From contig PMIU01000023.1 in NCBI GenBank assembly GCA_003157195.1, positions 1-10,849 of the forward strand: a stretch of 10,849 nucleotides of DNA, in the 5' to 3' direction. This DNA is from Candidatus Nomurabacteria bacterium. Its GTDB lineage: Bacteria; Patescibacteriota; Minisyncoccia; Phycocordibacterales; UBA9973. The stretch's first letter is position 1, and each line of letters starts with the position of its first letter. The position numbers and the translations under genes were made by a program. Of the stretch, positions 468 through 7,058 are shown piece after piece. Below the pieces are notes generated by a model that was given only the letters and a program-made list of their open reading frames with translations, did not search any database and had not been told where the DNA came from.

Positions 468-893
468 ATGCAGTTCAAGGTCCCACAATTTTTAGACATC
501 GAGGACAAAATTTTTGGCCCCTTTACTTTCAGGGAGTTTGCTTATTTGGCCGGCGGAGCGGGTTTGTGTTATGTAATTTTTAAATTAATGGGTCTTCTTT
601 TTGGAGCTATACCGATTTTAATCATTGCTGGGTTTTCTGGAGCTCTCATTTTTTATCGTCCCAACAATAAGCCCTTCGTCTATATGATAGAATCCGGTTT
701 TAAATATTTCACTCAGAACAAACTTTATATTTGGAAAAAGAAAAAACAAGTTGCAAATGGTAAATCAAAAATCGTGAATGAAGATAATAGTCAAATGATA
801 TATGGAAACAAGTTGACCGGCAGCAAACTGCGAGATTTGGCTTGGAGCCTCGATGTTCTTGATTTAAGAAAAAATCAAGAACATCAGTTATAA
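468..893 (+). CDS. PrgI family membrane protein (type IV secretion-like)
   Basis: The 141-residue protein begins MQFKVPQFLDIEDKIFGPFT and has two adjacent hydrophobic segments at about residues 24-45 and 46-64, followed by a basic tail (KKKK near 91-94). This is the layout of the PrgI family, a small inner-membrane component encoded next to VirB4 ATPases in Gram-positive and CPR conjugation-like clusters. The VirB4-type genes directly downstream support this. The last 45 or so residues are hydrophilic and unlike the core family. Their coding sequence holds a perfect 14-bp inverted repeat (852-885). The ATG at 468 is chosen because the family motif starts immediately after it; no Shine-Dalgarno site is seen. 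PrgI is thought to contribute to the membrane channel, but its exact role is not established. Confidence 0.85.
   Translation: MQFKVPQFLDIEDKIFGPFTFREFAYLAGGAGLCYVIFKLMGLLFGAIPILIIAGFSGALIFYRPNNKPFVYMIESGFKYFTQNKLYIWKKKKQVANGKSKIVNEDNSQMIYGNKLTGSKLRDLAWSLDVLDLRKNQEHQL
852..885. other. Perfect 14-bp inverted repeat at the 3' end of the PrgI gene
   Basis: Positions 852-865 (GATGTTCTTGATTT) and 872-885 (AAATCAAGAACATC) are exactly complementary and separated by the 6-base loop AAGAAA. The structure lies inside the coding region, encoding about residues 129-140, and ends 5 bases before the stop codon. No run of T follows, so it does not look like an intrinsic terminator. It could protect or process the mRNA, or affect ribosomes near the stop. 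Confidence 0.75.
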
Positions 894-993: not shown

Positions 994-1635
994 ATGGCTT
1001 TAAACGCAAAAGCAACACAAGAATTCATACCAATCAAAGAAGTGCGCGACGGCATCGTCGTCTTAAAAGACGGCGACTTGCGGGCTATTGTGCTGGCCAA
1101 TTCCGTCAACCTATCTTTGAAATCCGATGACGAGCAGAAGGCAACCATTTTACAATTTCAAAACTTCTTAAACACTTTGGATTTTTCCATACAAATATCA
1201 ATCCAGTCCAGAAAATTGGACATCCGACCATACCTCCTCTTGTTGGAAAACAGAGTAAAGGTGCAGACCGAGCCGCTCTTGAAATTACAAACAAAAGAAT
1301 ATATAGAATTCATTAGAAATTTTACAGAGACAGTGGCCATAATGACAAAAAGCTTTTTTGTGGTCGTGCCCTATACCCACACCGTTTTGAAGTCAGACTC
1401 GGGAATATTTGGAAGATTTTTCAAAAGAGGAAGTAAGGAACAAAATCGGGTAGCGAAAGAAGTTGACTTCGAAGAAAAGAGGTCTCAATTGGAAGAGCGG
1501 GTAGCTGTAATCCAACAAGGCCTAGGCCGTTGCGGTATAAACTCCGCGCAATTGGGCACCGAAGAAGTGGTGGAGGTATTTTATAAAGTTTTCAACCCAG
1601 GGGAATTGGAAGGAAAAATTAAGCTGGAAGCTTAA
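994..1635 (+). CDS. VirB4 N-terminal-like protein (TraC-like), separate gene
   Basis: This 213-residue soluble protein has no Walker motifs or membrane segments. It contains FIPIKEVRDGIVVLKDGDL (residues 11-29), then LANSVNLSLKSDDEQ and FLNTLDFSIQISIQSRKLDI (near 58-77), ending in VFYKVFNPGEL (195-205). These resemble the N-terminal, non-ATPase domain of VirB4/TraC-type proteins. Here it is a stand-alone gene just ahead of a VirB4 ATPase, an arrangement I associate with CPR genomes. It probably docks on or regulates the ATPase at the inner face of the membrane (inference). The start at 994 is supported by the conserved segment beginning soon after; no ribosome binding site is visible. The 47-bp gap to the ATPase gene is made of AT-rich repeats. 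The family link rests on recognition by eye. Confidence 0.7.
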   Translation: MALNAKATQEFIPIKEVRDGIVVLKDGDLRAIVLANSVNLSLKSDDEQKATILQFQNFLNTLDFSIQISIQSRKLDIRPYLLLLENRVKVQTEPLLKLQTKEYIEFIRNFTETVAIMTKSFFVVVPYTHTVLKSDSGIFGRFFKRGSKEQNRVAKEVDFEEKRSQLEERVAVIQQGLGRCGINSAQLGTEEVVEVFYKVFNPGELEGKIKLEA

Positions 1636-1638
1636 TTT

Positions 1639-1680
1639 TTCAAGTAAAAAGTTATAAAGTTTATAAAGTAGAAAGTAAAA
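1639..1680. repeat. Degenerate tandem repeat (TATAAAG-like), spacer copy 4
   Basis: Successive units read TAAAAAG, TTATAAAG, TTTATAAAG, TAGAAAG, TAAAA, in the same orientation as the spacer before position 36. They fill the whole gap between the VirB4 N-terminal-like gene and the VirB4 ATPase gene. The last unit, GAAAG about 7 bases before the ATG at 1683, might act as a weak ribosome binding site. Confidence 0.75.
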
Positions 1681-1682
1681 AA

Positions 1683-3539
1683 ATGAGCATACTAGATAAC
1701 ATAAAAAATTTATTTGGAAAAAAGGGAATGTCTGCTGGAGGACAAGCGCGAGCTTCCACTTTGGCTATCTTGCCGGAAGAAATTTATGAATCCGCCAATT
1801 TGGAACTGGAAGACGTCATCGCGCCTTCCGCCCTGAAAATCGAACCGAAATCAATAAACTTGGGCGAGAAAATTGCCCGCACTTTTTTCATAATATCCTA
1901 TCCGCGATTTTTGACCGACAATTGGTTTTCTCCGATTATCAATTTGGATAAAGTTTTTGATATTTCAATTTTTGTTCACCCGATAGACACCTCATTAATG
2001 CTAAGGCAGTTTCAGAAAAAAGTTGCCGAAGTGCAGAGCCAGATCTCTGTGCGTGAGGGCAAGGGAATGGTGCGCGACCCGATGCTCGACACCGCCTACC
2101 AAGACCTGGAAGGACTGCGGGATAATTTAATCCAAGCCCAAGAAAAAATGTTTGATGTTGGCGTCTACATCACCATATACGCCGACAATGATTTGGAACT
2201 TTTTAAAATTGAAAATGAAATAAAATCAATGTTAGAATCAAAATTGATCTATATCAAGCCGGCCCTTTTCCAGCAAGAAGAAGGTTTCAAAAGCGTTATT
2301 CCGGTGGAAATGGACTTGCTCAATATACACCAGAAACTAAATTCCGAGCCGCTTTCCAGCGTCTTCCCGTTTATTTCTTCCGACCTGACTTCCGACAAAG
2401 GCATACTCTATGGCATCAACAGAAGCAATTCCAGTCTGGTTATTTTCGACAGATTTTCTTTGGAAAATTACAATTCGGTAACTTTTGCCAAGTCCGGTTC
2501 CGGAAAATCTTATGCCACCAAGTTGGAAATTTTAAGGTCTTTAATGTTTGATACTGATGTCTTGGTGATAGACCCCGAGCGGGAATATGAATTCTTGTCC
2601 GAAGCTGTCGGGGGAAGATATTTCAATATTTCTCTATCAAGCGACCACCACATCAATCCTTTCGACCTGCCGATCCCGCGCGAAGACGAGACAGCTGAGG
2701 ATGTTTTGCGATCAAATATTATAAATTTGGTCGGACTTTTGAGACTGATGCTAGGGGGGCTAACCCCGGAGGAAGATTCGATGGTAGACAGAGCTATATC
2801 GGAGACTTACGCGATGAAAGACATTACCCCTGAGTCGGATTTCTCAAACATTGAACCCCCGCTTTTGTCAGACTTCGAAATGGTGCTCTCGGGGATGGAC
2901 GGCAGCGACTCTGTGGTGCAAAGATTGGTGAAATACACCAAAGGTTCTTGGGCGACATTTTTAAACAGGCCGTCGAATGTGGATATCAATAAAAAGTTCG
3001 TGGTATTTTCCGTTCGTGATATGGAAGACGAACTGAAACCGGTCGCCATGTATATCATTATGCATTACATTTGGACTGCTGTACGCAAGAATCTAAAAAA
3101 GCGCCTGCTGGTAGTTGACGAAGCTTGGTGGATGATGAAATCGGAAGACACGGCGTCGTTCTTGTATTCCATTGCCAAGAGAGGACGAAAATATTATCTG
3201 GGCCTTTCCACTATTACCCAGGATGCCGCTGACTTTATGAAATCTCCATACGGAGTGCCTATCATTACCAACTCTTCAATCCAGCTTCTCTTAAAACAAT
3301 CTCCGACTACCATTGACCTATTGCAAAAAACTTTCAATTTAACGGACGAAGAAAAATATCTGCTTTTGGAATCCAATGTGGGAGAAGGAATATTCTTTGC
3401 CGGGACAAAACACGTTGCTATAAAAATAATCGCCTCCTACACCGAAGACCAAATCATCACCTCTGACCCTTCACAGATACTGTCAAACCAAAAAGCCAAG
3501 CACGAACAGGAAGAGAGGGAGATTGCTGGGAAGCAGTAA
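1683..3539 (+). CDS. virB4: VirB4-family type IV secretion ATPase
   Basis: The 618-residue protein is a VirB4/TraC/CagE-type ATPase, the motor that energises assembly or transport in type IV secretion and conjugation systems at the cytoplasmic face of the membrane. Residues 1-240 form the VirB4 N-terminal part, with the segment SYPRFLTDNWFSPIINLD near 72-89. The ATPase core follows: Walker A FAKSGSGKSYATK (about 268-280), LVIDPEREYEFL (about 294-305), Walker B RLLVVDEAWWMM (about 474-485), KRGRKYYLGLSTITQD (about 500-515), and a glutamine/serine-rich sensor region further on. Length is somewhat short for VirB4, consistent with a related N-terminal-like domain being encoded separately just upstream. 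All ATPase motifs look intact. Start at the ATG at 1683. The 3' end is followed by a 7-bp tandem repeat and then a new promoter. Substrate (DNA or protein) cannot be told; no relaxase or coupling protein gene is in view. Confidence 0.93.
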   Translation: MSILDNIKNLFGKKGMSAGGQARASTLAILPEEIYESANLELEDVIAPSALKIEPKSINLGEKIARTFFIISYPRFLTDNWFSPIINLDKVFDISIFVHPIDTSLMLRQFQKKVAEVQSQISVREGKGMVRDPMLDTAYQDLEGLRDNLIQAQEKMFDVGVYITIYADNDLELFKIENEIKSMLESKLIYIKPALFQQEEGFKSVIPVEMDLLNIHQKLNSEPLSSVFPFISSDLTSDKGILYGINRSNSSLVIFDRFSLENYNSVTFAKSGSGKSYATKLEILRSLMFDTDVLVIDPEREYEFLSEAVGGRYFNISLSSDHHINPFDLPIPREDETAEDVLRSNIINLVGLLRLMLGGLTPEEDSMVDRAISETYAMKDITPESDFSNIEPPLLSDFEMVLSGMDGSDSVVQRLVKYTKGSWATFLNRPSNVDINKKFVVFSVRDMEDELKPVAMYIIMHYIWTAVRKNLKKRLLVVDEAWWMMKSEDTASFLYSIAKRGRKYYLGLSTITQDAADFMKSPYGVPIITNSSIQLLLKQSPTTIDLLQKTFNLTDEEKYLLLESNVGEGIFFAGTKHVAIKIIASYTEDQIITSDPSQILSNQKAKHEQEEREIAGKQ

Positions 3540-3541
3540 AA

Positions 3542-3572
3542 TAGGCATTAGGCTCTAGGCGTTAGGCATTAG
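3542..3572. repeat. 7-bp tandem repeat, 4.4 copies (TAGGCAT-like)
   Basis: Directly after the virB4 stop codon the sequence reads TAGGCAT, TAGGCTC, TAGGCGT, TAGGCAT, TAG in exact 7-bp register. This is a different family from the TATAAAG-like repeats upstream but has a similar period. Short heptanucleotide tandem repeats (STRR) are known from cyanobacterial intergenic regions; no relationship is claimed beyond the format. Confidence 0.85.
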
Positions 3573-3576
3573 CAAA

Positions 3577-3585
3577 TGATATAAT
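3577..3585 (+). promoter_or_regulatory. Extended -10 promoter (TGATATAAT), leaderless geometry
   Basis: TG-A-TATAAT at 3577-3585 is a perfect extended -10 element. A start about 7 bases downstream would fall at 3592-3593, only 2-3 bases before the ATG at 3595, so the mRNA would be leaderless or nearly so. No convincing -35 is present, as expected for extended -10 promoters. It would drive the signal-peptide fragment, the Ig-like gene, the pilin-hydrolase and the stalk protein. Confidence 0.6.
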
Positions 3586-3594
3586 ACGTAAAGT

Positions 3595-3696
3595 ATGAAA
3601 TTGAGATTCTTATTATTATATTTGGCTATCGTGCTTATAGTAACAAGCGTTATTTTGCCTTTTAAAACAAGCGCTTCTTCTCCGGATACCATTTAG
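3595..3696 (+). pseudogene. Signal-peptide fragment ended by in-frame TAG (5' part of the Ig-like protein gene)
   Basis: From the ATG at 3595 the frame encodes 33 residues: a short basic start (MKLRF), a hydrophobic core (about 5-22) and a likely signal peptidase site after KTSA (about residues 24-27), then SSPDTI and TAG at 3694-3696. Past the TAG the same frame continues as LNIAPQMPAPGENV and on to the stop at 4579-4581. The fragment is therefore the secretion signal of the downstream protein, separated by one nonsense codon. A CAG (Gln) to TAG change would explain it. The extended -10 box directly upstream shows this is the original start. Alternatives are an assembly error, or readthrough. 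Confidence 0.75.
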
Positions 3697-3714
3697 TTAA
3701 ATATTGCCCCACAG

Positions 3715-4581
3715 ATGCCAGCCCCCGGTGAAAATGTGAACATTTCTCTAAACAGTTATGTTGATAATTTAAACAGTGTTTTGATATCCTGGTCTGTGAA
3801 CGGCAAAAGTGGGTTGTCGGGGATCGGCAAAAAGTCTTTTTCTGTAAACGCTCCGGCGGCGGGACAACAAACTACCGTTGTGGCCACCATAAAATTGCCT
3901 GACGGCGATATCAACACAACGATGATAATCAAATCGTCGGTAATGGTGTTGCTTTGGCAGGCGGATGATTCTTATGTGCCACCTTTTTATAAAGGGAAGG
4001 CTTTGCCTTCACCAGAAAGTGAAGTAAAAGTAGTGGCTATGCCGGAAATTAGGTCCGGTTCGCAAACGATGAGTCCCTCCAACCTTGTTTATACCTGGAA
4101 ACAGGATTATAACAACGCACAAGACGCTTCCGGTTACGGCAAAAATTCTTTTACATATGTGAATGATTACTTGGACAGCTCAAACAACATAGACGTAGTG
4201 GCCTCGACGACCGACCAAACTTCTTCATCAGAAGCAAGCATAGACATAGGCACATACCAGCCTAAAATTGTGTTTTATAAAAATGATGCCAAACTGGGAA
4301 CGTTGTGGGAACTAGCCCTGGCCGACGGGCATAAAGTAACTGGAGACGAAACCATCCAAGCCGCGCCGTATTTCATTTCACCGGGAGACATCCGCATACC
4401 TACCCTCGCTTGGACTTGGTCTATAAACGATAGCCCGGTGACCATAGAGAGCTTTCAACAAAATTTGATGCCACTGAAAGTACAATCTGGTACTTCCGGA
4501 ACATCTAAAATAGATTTGCAAATTAATAATACTTACAAAATTTTCGAAAATGTAAGTAAAGAAATTAATGTAAACTTTTAA
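3715..4581 (+). CDS. Ig-like repeat protein body, cut off from its signal peptide by an amber codon
   Basis: This is the open part (288 residues from the ATG at 3715) of a gene that originally began at 3595. It resembles a conserved CPR secreted protein found beside pilin genes, with the pattern APxPAPGENVxISLxSYxxNLxSVxISWxVNG. About three Ig/PKD-like beta modules are suggested by Trp-containing strands at W26 (ISWSVNG), W128 (YTWKQDY) and W235 (WTWSIND), the first two followed by a G-x-G-K-x-SF turn. Without the signal peptide the product would stay in the cytoplasm. The ATG at 3715 has no ribosome binding site, so the gene may be a pseudogene or depend on readthrough. The body carries no other disruption, so any inactivation is recent. 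The stop overlaps the next gene's ATG by one base (TAATG), pointing to translational coupling. Probable original role: extracellular or surface partner of the apparatus (inference). Confidence 0.65.
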   Translation: MPAPGENVNISLNSYVDNLNSVLISWSVNGKSGLSGIGKKSFSVNAPAAGQQTTVVATIKLPDGDINTTMIIKSSVMVLLWQADDSYVPPFYKGKALPSPESEVKVVAMPEIRSGSQTMSPSNLVYTWKQDYNNAQDASGYGKNSFTYVNDYLDSSNNIDVVASTTDQTSSSEASIDIGTYQPKIVFYKNDAKLGTLWELALADGHKVTGDETIQAAPYFISPGDIRIPTLAWTWSINDSPVTIESFQQNLMPLKVQSGTSGTSKIDLQINNTYKIFENVSKEINVNF

Positions 4582-5699
4582 TGAAAAAATATATAACATA
4601 CATTTTAATAATAATTGCGCTGGTGGGAATTTTTAGTCCGGCATATAAAACACAAGCTCAGGTAACGGGTATTTGTGTTGATGGCAGTAATGTCAGAGAT
4701 GGTTTATCGCAAGCTGACTGCGCAAGTATACCTGGAGCAACGTGGACATTAGACCCTGACGGAAAGTGCACTTTCCCAGATGGACACATAGAACCCAACT
4801 ATAAAGCAAAAAATTGCGCAGAAAATAAAGGAACTTGGGCTGGCCCATATGTTCTCTTGGCTCCACTGCCTTGTCAAAAGGGTGATGCTGGATGTGATGA
4901 AAACGGAAAACTAACATCCTTTGACCCAACTGGTCCAAATAAAATCGGTGGGTATTTGAATTTAATTATAAAGATATTCATAGGCCTGTGCGCCGTCTTG
5001 GCTGTGGTGATGATTGTCATAGGCGGGATAGAATATATGACGAGCGAACTGATATCCAGCAAAGAAGCAGGCAAGGAAAGAATTACCCACGCAATTTTTG
5101 GTCTTCTTTTGGCTCTTGGAGCTTGGACGCTCTTGAACCAAATAAATCCGGACATACTAAATACGGACTTGAAAAGCTTGGCAGACGTTTCGGTATCAGT
5201 GGATGTGATAGTGGGCGGTGAATCTACGACAGCCTTTAAGGATATAAGTTCCGATTTGGTAAAATCCACAAGCATAAATTGCAGTACGAATCTCGTTGCA
5301 ACTGCCAATTCTTTTATCGGAAACTCTACCTATAGTCAAACAAATAGAAATACCATTAGTGGGGGAAAAGCAGTGGTAGATTGTTCTTCTTTTGTTGATC
5401 AAGTGTATAAATGTGCTCAATTACCAATACCAGGAAGCACCACAACTGAAATTTTTGACACAACAAAAGGTGCTACTGCAATTACAGCTCAGGATCTAAA
5501 AACTCTAAAGGTGGGTGATTTAATTGGTTGGAAAAAAGGTGATACTGCTGGTGGAACAAAAGAAGATAATGGCCATGTTATGATGTATATAGGTGATGGG
5601 AAGATAATAGATGCCATGGGAGGAACTACAAATGGTGTTACTACAAGACTTCTAAAAGATACAACAGCAGCACGATTAACGTATATAAAAAGAATTTAA
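4581..5699 (+). CDS. VirB2/TrbC-type pilin-like protein fused to an NlpC/P60 peptidoglycan hydrolase
   Basis: The 372-residue protein has four parts. Residues 1-27 are a signal peptide (likely cut after KTQA). Residues 28-110 are a Cys-rich region with two similar units, C32...C47...W55 and C63...C79...W86. Residues about 124-190 carry two membrane segments (126-150 and 169-186) joined by a short polar loop, typical of VirB2/TrbC pilins. Residues about 230-372 look like an NlpC/P60 domain: VVDCSSFVDQVYKC with candidate nucleophile C268, VGDLIGWKKGD (311-321), GHVMMYIGDG with H332, and IIDAMGG with D344 as possible third residue. NlpC/P60 enzymes cut peptide bonds in peptidoglycan stems. The combination suggests a membrane-tethered wall-opening enzyme of the secretion apparatus. 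G+C counted by hand is about 47% in the pilin core (4981-5220) and 37% in the hydrolase part (5341-5640), which hints at acquired domain DNA. The third catalytic residue is uncertain. Confidence 0.8.
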   Translation: MKKYITYILIIIALVGIFSPAYKTQAQVTGICVDGSNVRDGLSQADCASIPGATWTLDPDGKCTFPDGHIEPNYKAKNCAENKGTWAGPYVLLAPLPCQKGDAGCDENGKLTSFDPTGPNKIGGYLNLIIKIFIGLCAVLAVVMIVIGGIEYMTSELISSKEAGKERITHAIFGLLLALGAWTLLNQINPDILNTDLKSLADVSVSVDVIVGGESTTAFKDISSDLVKSTSINCSTNLVATANSFIGNSTYSQTNRNTISGGKAVVDCSSFVDQVYKCAQLPIPGSTTTEIFDTTKGATAITAQDLKTLKVGDLIGWKKGDTAGGTKEDNGHVMMYIGDGKIIDAMGGTTNGVTTRLLKDTTAARLTYIKRI

Positions 5700-5708
5700 T
5701 TAAATTTT

Positions 5709-7058
5709 ATGACAAGAAGAAATTTTATACTTTTAGTAATAGTCCTGGTCATCGTCGTAATCGCGATTTTTGTGTTTTTATTTTCCCAACCCAATACAAC
5801 CACGCCGGGAGGGGAGGGCACGGGCACAAACTTTTTCTCGCAGTTTAATCCTTTTGCAAGCAATAAAACAAAAACTCCCGTGGTGACGCCTCCAGTTACT
5901 ACACCCGGAACCGAACCCGGCACAACTCCGGAAACAACTTCAAAATTAATAAAGATTTCCAGTATGCCGATTGCGGGGTTTGGGGTGTTTAGTAAAGAAC
6001 GAATCAAAGTTGTGCCGGTGGTGACTCCAGACCCCACCCTAACCCTCCCCTTAGCAGGGGAGGCAGCAAAAACTCCACCAAAAACTACAAAAGTAGTCGC
6101 GCCACTTACAGAATTTATGCCAGCTTTGCGATATGTAGACAGAGCCACCGGAAACATTTTTGAAACTTTCGCCGACAAAATTCAAGAGCAGAAATTTTCC
6201 ACAACGGTGATACCAGAGATATATGATGCATATTTTGGAAACAATGGACAGTCTGTAGTTATGCGATATTTGAAAACCGATGGCAGAACCATAGAAACTT
6301 TTGCAAGTAATCTTCCGAAGGAACTTTTGGGGGCAGACCCTACGGTTACTAATGAAATAAAAGGTTCTTTCTTGCCAGAAAACATCAAAGACATCAGTTT
6401 GTCACCCGACAATTCGAGTATATTTTATTTATTCAACAGCGGAGATAATATGGTGGGCACAACGATGAATTTGGCAACAAGTAAAAAGGTGCAAATTTTT
6501 ACTTCGCCGTTTACTGAATGGCTGTCACAGTGGCCAAGCACGGGAACAATCACTCTCACGACCAAACCTGCTTCTGGTATACCGGGATATATGTATACGC
6601 TAAACACTAATACGAAAAATCTATCCAGCTCACTCGGCAACATAAACGGTCTTACCACGCTTTCTAGTCCAAACGGCAAATTAATCCTATATAACAACGA
6701 CAGTTTGTCACTCAATATTTATCATACAGACACAAAAGTTTCAGACCCGGTAGGAGTCAGAACTATGCCCGAGAAATGCATCTGGAGTAGCGCTAGTGAC
6801 GCTATATACTGCGCTGTGCCGAAATCAATACCTTTAGGCACGTACCCGGACTCTTGGTACCAAGGAGAAGTGTCTTTCAGTGATCAAATTTGGAAAATAG
6901 ATATTAAAACCGGAAATACGACTCTGCTCGTAGACCCACTCACCATAAGTGGCGGGGAAGAGATGGATGGCACAAAACTCGCATTGGATGCCGGTGGAAA
7001 TTATTTATTTTTTGTAAATAAAAAAGATTCTTTTCTTTGGGAATTCGCGCTTAAATAG
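5709..7058 (+). CDS. Membrane-anchored protein with Thr/Pro-rich stalk and propeller-like C-terminal body
   Basis: I do not recognise a named family. The 449-residue protein has an N-terminal anchor (hydrophobic residues about 6-26 after MTRRN), a low-complexity Thr/Pro/Gly-rich stalk (about 28-135) and a globular part (136-449). In the latter, short strand motifs recur, such as DISLSPDNSSIFYLF, TTLSSPNGKLILYNN and WKIDIKTGNTTLLVD. Such SPDG-like turns are typical of WD40-like/PD40 beta-propellers, so a propeller fold is plausible but unproven. The topology is N-in with a large extracytoplasmic body. It follows the pilin-hydrolase gene by 9 bases and is probably in the same transcript; it may be an external scaffold or sensor of the apparatus. 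The stalk at residues about 106-120 is encoded by a REP-like palindrome (6027-6064). The gene ends in TAG and overlaps the convergent jag gene by 8 bp. Confidence 0.75.
   Translation: MTRRNFILLVIVLVIVVIAIFVFLFSQPNTTTPGGEGTGTNFFSQFNPFASNKTKTPVVTPPVTTPGTEPGTTPETTSKLIKISSMPIAGFGVFSKERIKVVPVVTPDPTLTLPLAGEAAKTPPKTTKVVAPLTEFMPALRYVDRATGNIFETFADKIQEQKFSTTVIPEIYDAYFGNNGQSVVMRYLKTDGRTIETFASNLPKELLGADPTVTNEIKGSFLPENIKDISLSPDNSSIFYLFNSGDNMVGTTMNLATSKKVQIFTSPFTEWLSQWPSTGTITLTTKPASGIPGYMYTLNTNTKNLSSSLGNINGLTTLSSPNGKLILYNNDSLSLNIYHTDTKVSDPVGVRTMPEKCIWSSASDAIYCAVPKSIPLGTYPDSWYQGEVSFSDQIWKIDIKTGNTTLLVDPLTISGGEEMDGTKLALDAGGNYLFFVNKKDSFLWEFALK
6027..6064 (+). repeat. REP-like palindromic element, copy A, inside the stalk protein gene
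   Basis: CCTCCCCT (6044-6051) and AGGGGAGG (6056-6063) form a perfect 8-bp stem around the loop TAGC, preceded by the C-rich arm AGACCCCACCCTAACC. The element is read in frame as PDPTLTLPLAGEA. A related copy lies on the - strand at 7312-7349. Its C/G-rich make-up contrasts sharply with the AT-rich surroundings. It is a likely dispersed palindromic repeat that landed in a tolerant linker. Confidence 0.75.

Follow-up and report, generated by a model that had tools for sequence, protein, structure and literature searches.

Why would a pilin of a type IV secretion system (T4SS) carry a cell wall enzyme, where would that enzyme have come from, and which wall would it act on? These questions are raised by one gene in a 10,849-nt stretch of DNA (hereafter, the window) on contig PMIU01000023.1 of a Candidatus Nomurabacteria bacterium (GCA_003157195.1), which belongs to a group of very small bacteria that probably depend on hosts. 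A sequence-only reading had described its product as a VirB2-like pilin fused to an NlpC/P60 hydrolase, with a composition break at the join, and had taken the hydrolase for a later addition. It had proposed a profile search, a structure prediction, and a survey of homologous pilins as checks. Together these upheld the fusion, the active-site residues, the break, and the separate origin, but the scale had been missed: at this locus, the tail of the pilin was repeatedly replaced by unrelated wall enzymes.

A pilin and an NlpC/P60 domain in one reading frame

The T4SS genes lie on the positive strand in the order PrgI, a 213-aa protein, a VirB4-type ATPase, u288, the fused pilin, and u449 (Table 1). 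They are followed by jag, yidC, and an rnpA-like gene, all three on the negative strand (the rnpA label being given from position and length rather than from a profile), and by dnaA on the positive strand. The u288 and pilin genes overlap by one base, and the pilin gene is two genes downstream of VirB4, the same arrangement as in relatives. Directly upstream of the operon, positions 36-383 encode a 23S rRNA-intervening-sequence (S23-type) protein (PF05635, E = 1.6e-30). The pair formed by the 213-aa protein and the VirB4-type ATPase recurs in relatives; the former may be the TrsD-like protein, related to the N-terminal part of VirB4, of PMC12102498.

Table 1. Features of the T4SS operon and of the fused pilin (window coordinates)
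Feature	Positions	Strand	Basis
PrgI/VirB3-like protein	468..893	+	PF12666, 33.1 bits (cut-off 27)
213-aa protein ("VirB4N"), between PrgI and VirB4	994..1635	+	No Pfam match
VirB4-type ATPase, TraG P-loop domain	1683..3539	+	PF19044, E = 2.4e-25
u288, conserved, directly upstream of pilin gene	3715..4581	+	No Pfam match; found in relatives
Pilin-NlpC/P60 fusion gene, 372 aa	4581..5699	+	ORF and Pfam
Likely Sec signal peptide, residues 1-27	4581..4661	+	Sequence by eye; model helix 2-17
Cys-containing N-terminal region, residues 28-120	4662..4940	+	Sequence
PF18895 core, residues 124-186	4950..5138	+	Pfam, model
Join and linker, residues 189-234	5145..5282	+	Divergence point of relatives' proteins
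NlpC/P60 domain, residues 235-372	5283..5696	+	Pfam match 263-361 (5367-5663); model
C268, predicted nucleophile	5382..5384	+	70/70; aligns with D-C motif of CwlO
H332, predicted general base	5574..5576	+	70/70; aligns with G-H motif of CwlO
D344, candidate third active-site residue	5610..5612	+	Position counts in NlpC-type alignment
u449, conserved, directly downstream of pilin gene	5709..7058	+	No Pfam match over cut-off; found in relatives

The pilin gene is a single unbroken open reading frame that matched two Pfam profiles above their cut-offs, T4SS_pilin (PF18895; E = 3.8e-7, 30.5 bits against a cut-off of 26.6) and NLPC_P60 (PF00877; E = 1.4e-10, 41.5 bits against a cut-off of 23). The VirB2/TrbC core named in the sequence-only reading was recovered as the PF18895 match and as two modeled helices forming a hairpin (residues 121-154 and 158-188), but the TrbC/VirB2 profile itself, PF04956, stayed below its cut-off (17 versus 27.9 bits). 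The two hydrophobic helices, joined by a short basic loop (SSKEAGKER), are those of a VirB2-like pilin; a length of 372 aa, which includes the added enzyme, sets the protein apart from small pilins that are mostly core. By eye, the N-terminal region holds six cysteines (C32, C47, C63, C79, C98, and C105), and in ten pairs compared it was far more variable than the pilin core.

The C-terminal domain was predicted to adopt a papain-like NlpC/P60 fold, and the predicted structure matched NlpC/P60 domains. In an alignment of 70 NlpC-type relatives, D267, C268, G331, and H332 were each present in every sequence, in agreement with the earlier numbering of C268 and H332 and with their candidate catalytic roles. 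Position 344 was Asp in 58 of the 70, Glu in 7, His in 3, Asn in 1, and a gap in 1; the third polar residue of NlpC/P60 enzymes is usually His, Asn, or Gln. The NlpC part also matched phage tail proteins with lysin activity (PHROG 1015, E = 2.2e-10).

Relatives with near-identical pilins diverged past about residue 197-210 (window numbering). One database protein of 217 aa, P0002, is 99% identical to the pilin part of the window and stops just past the join, with its last few residues differing; its contig may have ended at a point where strains differ. The fusion is present in many other genomes and contigs and thus is not an accident of assembly.

The hand-counted G+C contents of 47% and 37% were reproduced on recomputation (47.1% for positions 4981-5220 and 37.3% for positions 5341-5640). 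The break lay at third codon positions: GC3 was 0.42 in the pilin (residues 89-213) versus 0.17 in the enzyme (residues 239-372), while the GC content of positions 1 and 2 was 0.44 and 0.46. Among ten other genes examined, the lowest GC3 of any 80 codons was 0.237. Compared with same-length segments of three operon genes, none of which was as low, the enzyme part had a z score of -4.6. Of 44 loci, 38 had an enzyme GC3 below the operon value, the difference exceeding 2 standard deviations in 23, and none had one that was higher by 2 standard deviations. Such values support a separate origin and fit cassettes drawn from an AT-richer pool, but they may also reflect constraint on the segment itself.

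Wall-enzyme tails across the genus

We searched 100 genomes, including that of the window; 90 had a match at 1e-5, among them 57 of the 60 genomes of the genus. Fifty-nine neighborhoods were fetched (L036-L094), of which the genus supplied 51 and the order 8. Adding the window gene and L027 brought the genus loci to 53, and the seven genus genomes outside this count comprised three with no match, two with weak matches only, and two with fragments. Seventeen relatives in genome contigs carried names: Candidatus Nomurabacteria (10), Kaiserbacteria (3), the Parcubacteria group (2), Paceibacterota (1), and uncultured (1).

The VirB4-u288-pilin-u449 run was conserved in 51 genus loci, to the extent of each contig. 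In the mechanical list of reading frames, L043 and L074 each had one additional frame between u288 and the pilin, and the pilin and u449 of L086 were merged over a run of N. The gap between the pilin and u449 was less than 20 bases in most loci, the exceptions being L036 (233), L055 (81), and L067 (457). Among the fetched loci, the stretch ahead of the pilin core ranged from about 13 to 630 residues in length.

Tails were sorted with profiles built from labeled relatives. One of ten wall-enzyme types was found in 42 of the 53 genus loci, ten loci had no enzyme, and one was unreadable. The types were M15-like (10 loci), NlpC (6), VanY (5), SLT_2 (5), LysA (4), M15_4 (3), QRES (3), YkuD (2), LysB (2), and NPGNI (2). 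NlpC, VanY, M15_4, SLT_2, and YkuD had Pfam backing in the members tested; M15-like, LysA, QRES, LysB, and NPGNI are motif names only. Within the tail-class alignments, the motif residues expected of each family were conserved. Among the matches listed, 119 of 120 database proteins carried one of these tail types, as did 64 of 69 further new ones.

At the order level, enzyme tails were rarer than in the genus, occurring in 7 of 28 loci (L084, L093, L094, L116, L126, L128, and L129); neither the genes of L126 nor the enzyme gene of L128 lay at the orthologous place. L126, from another family of the order, has two adjacent pilin genes, each with a tail (3581-5917), one an SLT transglycosylase (PF01464, E = 2.4e-14) and the second M15-like by eye. 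In L128, a pilin (1145-3028) has a long M23-like tail that scored just under the Pfam cut-off and matched PHROG 7767. The pilin of L119 (1340-3385) has a 533-residue tail that is beta-helix-like by eye and has no Pfam match.

Tail replacement against the history of the operon

Enzyme types were placed on a tree of four neighboring operon proteins from 41 genus loci (L067 was left out, its backbone being too short). The types required 27 changes, and 2,000 shuffles of the labels required 24 to 31 (mean, 28.4), with 23% at or below the observed value. On a more careful tree that included L084, the 42 loci required 28 changes, against 24 to 32 in shuffles (mean, 29.2; 29% at or below the observed value). 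No phylogenetic signal of enzyme type was detectable on either operon-protein tree (41 and 42 loci). When both members of a sister pair had an enzyme, its type differed in 13 of 14 pairs, two of the 13 being weakly supported; examples are L046 (YkuD) and L048 (LysB), L037 (NlpC) and L044 (M15-like), and L038 (NlpC) and L063 (M15-like). The absence of an enzyme was nonrandom: all nine loci without an enzyme that the tree contained fell within a single part of it, and adding them dropped the number of changes far below the shuffles.

The same pattern was found between nearly identical pilins. Over the first 165 residues of P0120, P0119 and P0017 were 100% and 99% identical to it, and just past the second helix the three, which are metagenome-contig proteins compared at the protein level, diverged into YkuD (P0119), NlpC (P0017), and lysozyme-like (P0120) tails. 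In L042 and L043, the VanY tails were 78% identical, with third-base agreement of 0.63 at shared residues, versus 60 to 64% and 0.45 to 0.49 for the pilin core, u288, and u449; third-base agreement was 0.47 to 0.55 in other genes and 0.65 in the short N-terminal part. A tail clearly more alike than the core (by at least 0.10) was found in only 75 of 3,226 same-type pairs, a scarcity that would be expected were most exchanges older or their source pool wide. At this locus, the pilin tail has changed repeatedly from one wall enzyme to another, unrelated one.

In ten genomes searched for other copies of the tails, YkuD was found in none, NlpC was found in two and only within the fused pilin, and the M15-like tail was found only at the pilin; VanY was a separate gene in six of the ten. 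All seven proteins found with the NlpC part of the window alone also matched the pilin-core profile. Since YkuD, NlpC, and M15-like tails did not turn up a second time in any of the ten genomes, the tails were probably exchanged between genomes, and pilin genes of other genomes are the simplest source of the cassettes, all seven NlpC-part matches having a pilin core. In the shufflon of R64 PilV, a type IV pilin, alternative C-terminal segments that decide the partner are stored and inverted within one plasmid. Here, by contrast, no stored copies of YkuD, NlpC, or M15-like tails were found in the ten genomes.

Possible targets of the fused enzyme

On balance, we consider it likely that the locus encodes a T4SS-tethered peptidoglycan enzyme that acts at the site of contact and has an exchangeable tail. 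The protein would be a VirB2-like pilin of a chromosomal T4SS in a Candidatus Nomurabacteria-type (Paceibacteria) cell. Once it was exported, its helical hairpin would be held by the membrane or by a filament built from such subunits, and the Cys region and the NlpC/P60 domain would both be outside; both ends are expected there by the positive-inside rule, because the loop of the hairpin is basic. The enzyme is predicted from its sequence to cut peptidoglycan stem peptides, so the T4SS would gain a wall-opening activity built into a pilin at the contact point. The enzyme part behaves as a cassette, since across the genus the same pilin is joined to any of ten wall-enzyme types or to no enzyme, and replacement would proceed by exchange between genomes via the conserved flanks. 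Different partner walls or partner defenses favoring different enzymes would be the most likely driver. Counting against this explanation are the ten enzyme-less loci among the 53 of the genus, the lack of a strong GC3 break in 21 of 44 loci, the small number of same-type pairs with a tail clearly more alike than the core (75 of 3,226), and the presence of an enzyme tail in only 7 of the 28 order-level loci.

The genome of the window is 91% complete, in 111 contigs. Its contig C10 contains seven further PF18895 matches, six of them over the cut-off; since the genome has these further pilins, it is unlikely that the fused protein serves as the main subunit of any filament. On the same contig (L095, about 1204-4013), small T4SS pilins stand in tandem, and one frame of about 239 aa has two pilin cores. 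The coupling-protein profile PF02534 had no match in this 91% complete genome.

The fused enzyme might instead substitute for VirB1, opening the cell's own wall for T4SS assembly while its type drifts by neutral exchange. VirB1 proteins open the cell's own wall in other T4SSs (PMC12857230), and most Patescibacteria with VirB2 were found without VirB1 (PMC12102498). The genome of the window contains Mur ligases and penicillin-binding transpeptidases, so its own wall is a possible target, and it had no other NlpC/P60 domain and no match to the SLT profile PF01464. It also counts against the contact-site explanation that a random pattern of types would be expected from the exchange of any working enzyme with the own wall as target, and that VanY and YkuD enzymes need not open a wall at all, which would fit trimming or remodeling too. 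However, ten genus loci retain the operon with no enzyme (though an enzyme encoded elsewhere could assist), and types that differ in the bond attacked have been swapped fast enough to erase all detectable signal, more than we would expect of a housekeeping part. We regard this alternative as unlikely. Because bond-differing enzymes replace each other, ten loci lack an enzyme, and the exposed N-terminal part is variable, the own wall is probably not the whole story. The sequence-only reading had suggested either opening of the wall at the secretion site or action on a neighboring cell; the pattern of replacement leans toward the neighbor, and we rank the wall of the partner first as target, with moderate confidence.

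Polymorphic toxins likewise join differing C-terminal enzymes to an N-terminal part that stays constant, but a killing domain released into competitors is very improbable here, as no variable immunity gene adjoins the pilin and u449 comes next, mostly at once, in the loci listed. Least probable is an adhesin that chiefly grips partner peptidoglycan, with catalysis secondary, as proposed for inactive VirB1 homologues in some Gram-positive systems (PMC12857230), since the NlpC type keeps its active-site residues without exception and the other types conserve theirs.

The tethered, exchangeable enzyme that we favor resembles several known systems in part. VirB1-type enzymes (PrgK of pCF10, TraG of pIP501, and Orf14 of Tn916) are T4SS-dedicated wall enzymes, and those of Gram-positive bacteria are membrane anchored and act outside (PMC12857230). 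They are separate proteins, however, whereas here an enzyme that fits them in domain and genomic place, as judged from sequence, is the tail of a pilin and varies in type from genome to genome. Patescibacteria VirB2-like pilins (PMC12102498; the S. epibionticum array in PMC12857230) share the PF18895 core and the location near virB4, and the genome of the window also has an array of small pilins; they are small and sequence variable, and a fused enzyme is not mentioned in the section concerned. NlpC/P60 lysins of phage tails and tailocins (PHROG 1015; the diffocin baseplate, 8v3w) likewise place a wall enzyme on a target-contacting device, but the carrier and the machine are different, and the likeness is one of working principle only.

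A survey of T4SS parts in 3,035 Patescibacteria genomes inferred VirB1 to be dispensable for the pilus and found VirB1 homologues near virB4 to be more common in Paceibacteria, 83 of them with extra, mostly wall-related domains (PMC12102498). Its section 13 makes no mention of a pilin-enzyme fusion, and some of those 83 homologues may be fused pilins of the present kind. The fusion may have gone unremarked because the sources name some of these proteins as "NlpC" or "M15" enzymes and others as "VirB2 pilin."

The Patescibacteria T4SS has been described as mostly lacking VirB1; a wall enzyme that forms part of a pilin and is exchanged from one species to the next would give it a concrete wall-facing activity. 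A stronger version, which we put forward tentatively as possible but short of probable, is a polymorphic "warhead pilin" in Nomurabacteria-type Patescibacteria, whose enzyme breaches the partner wall, moves from genome to genome even where the pilin lineages are nearly identical, and is a main determinant of which host walls can be opened. The tail type could serve as a marker for comparison with host identity, and at this locus a single pilin scaffold occurs in many natural combinations with distinct folded tails.
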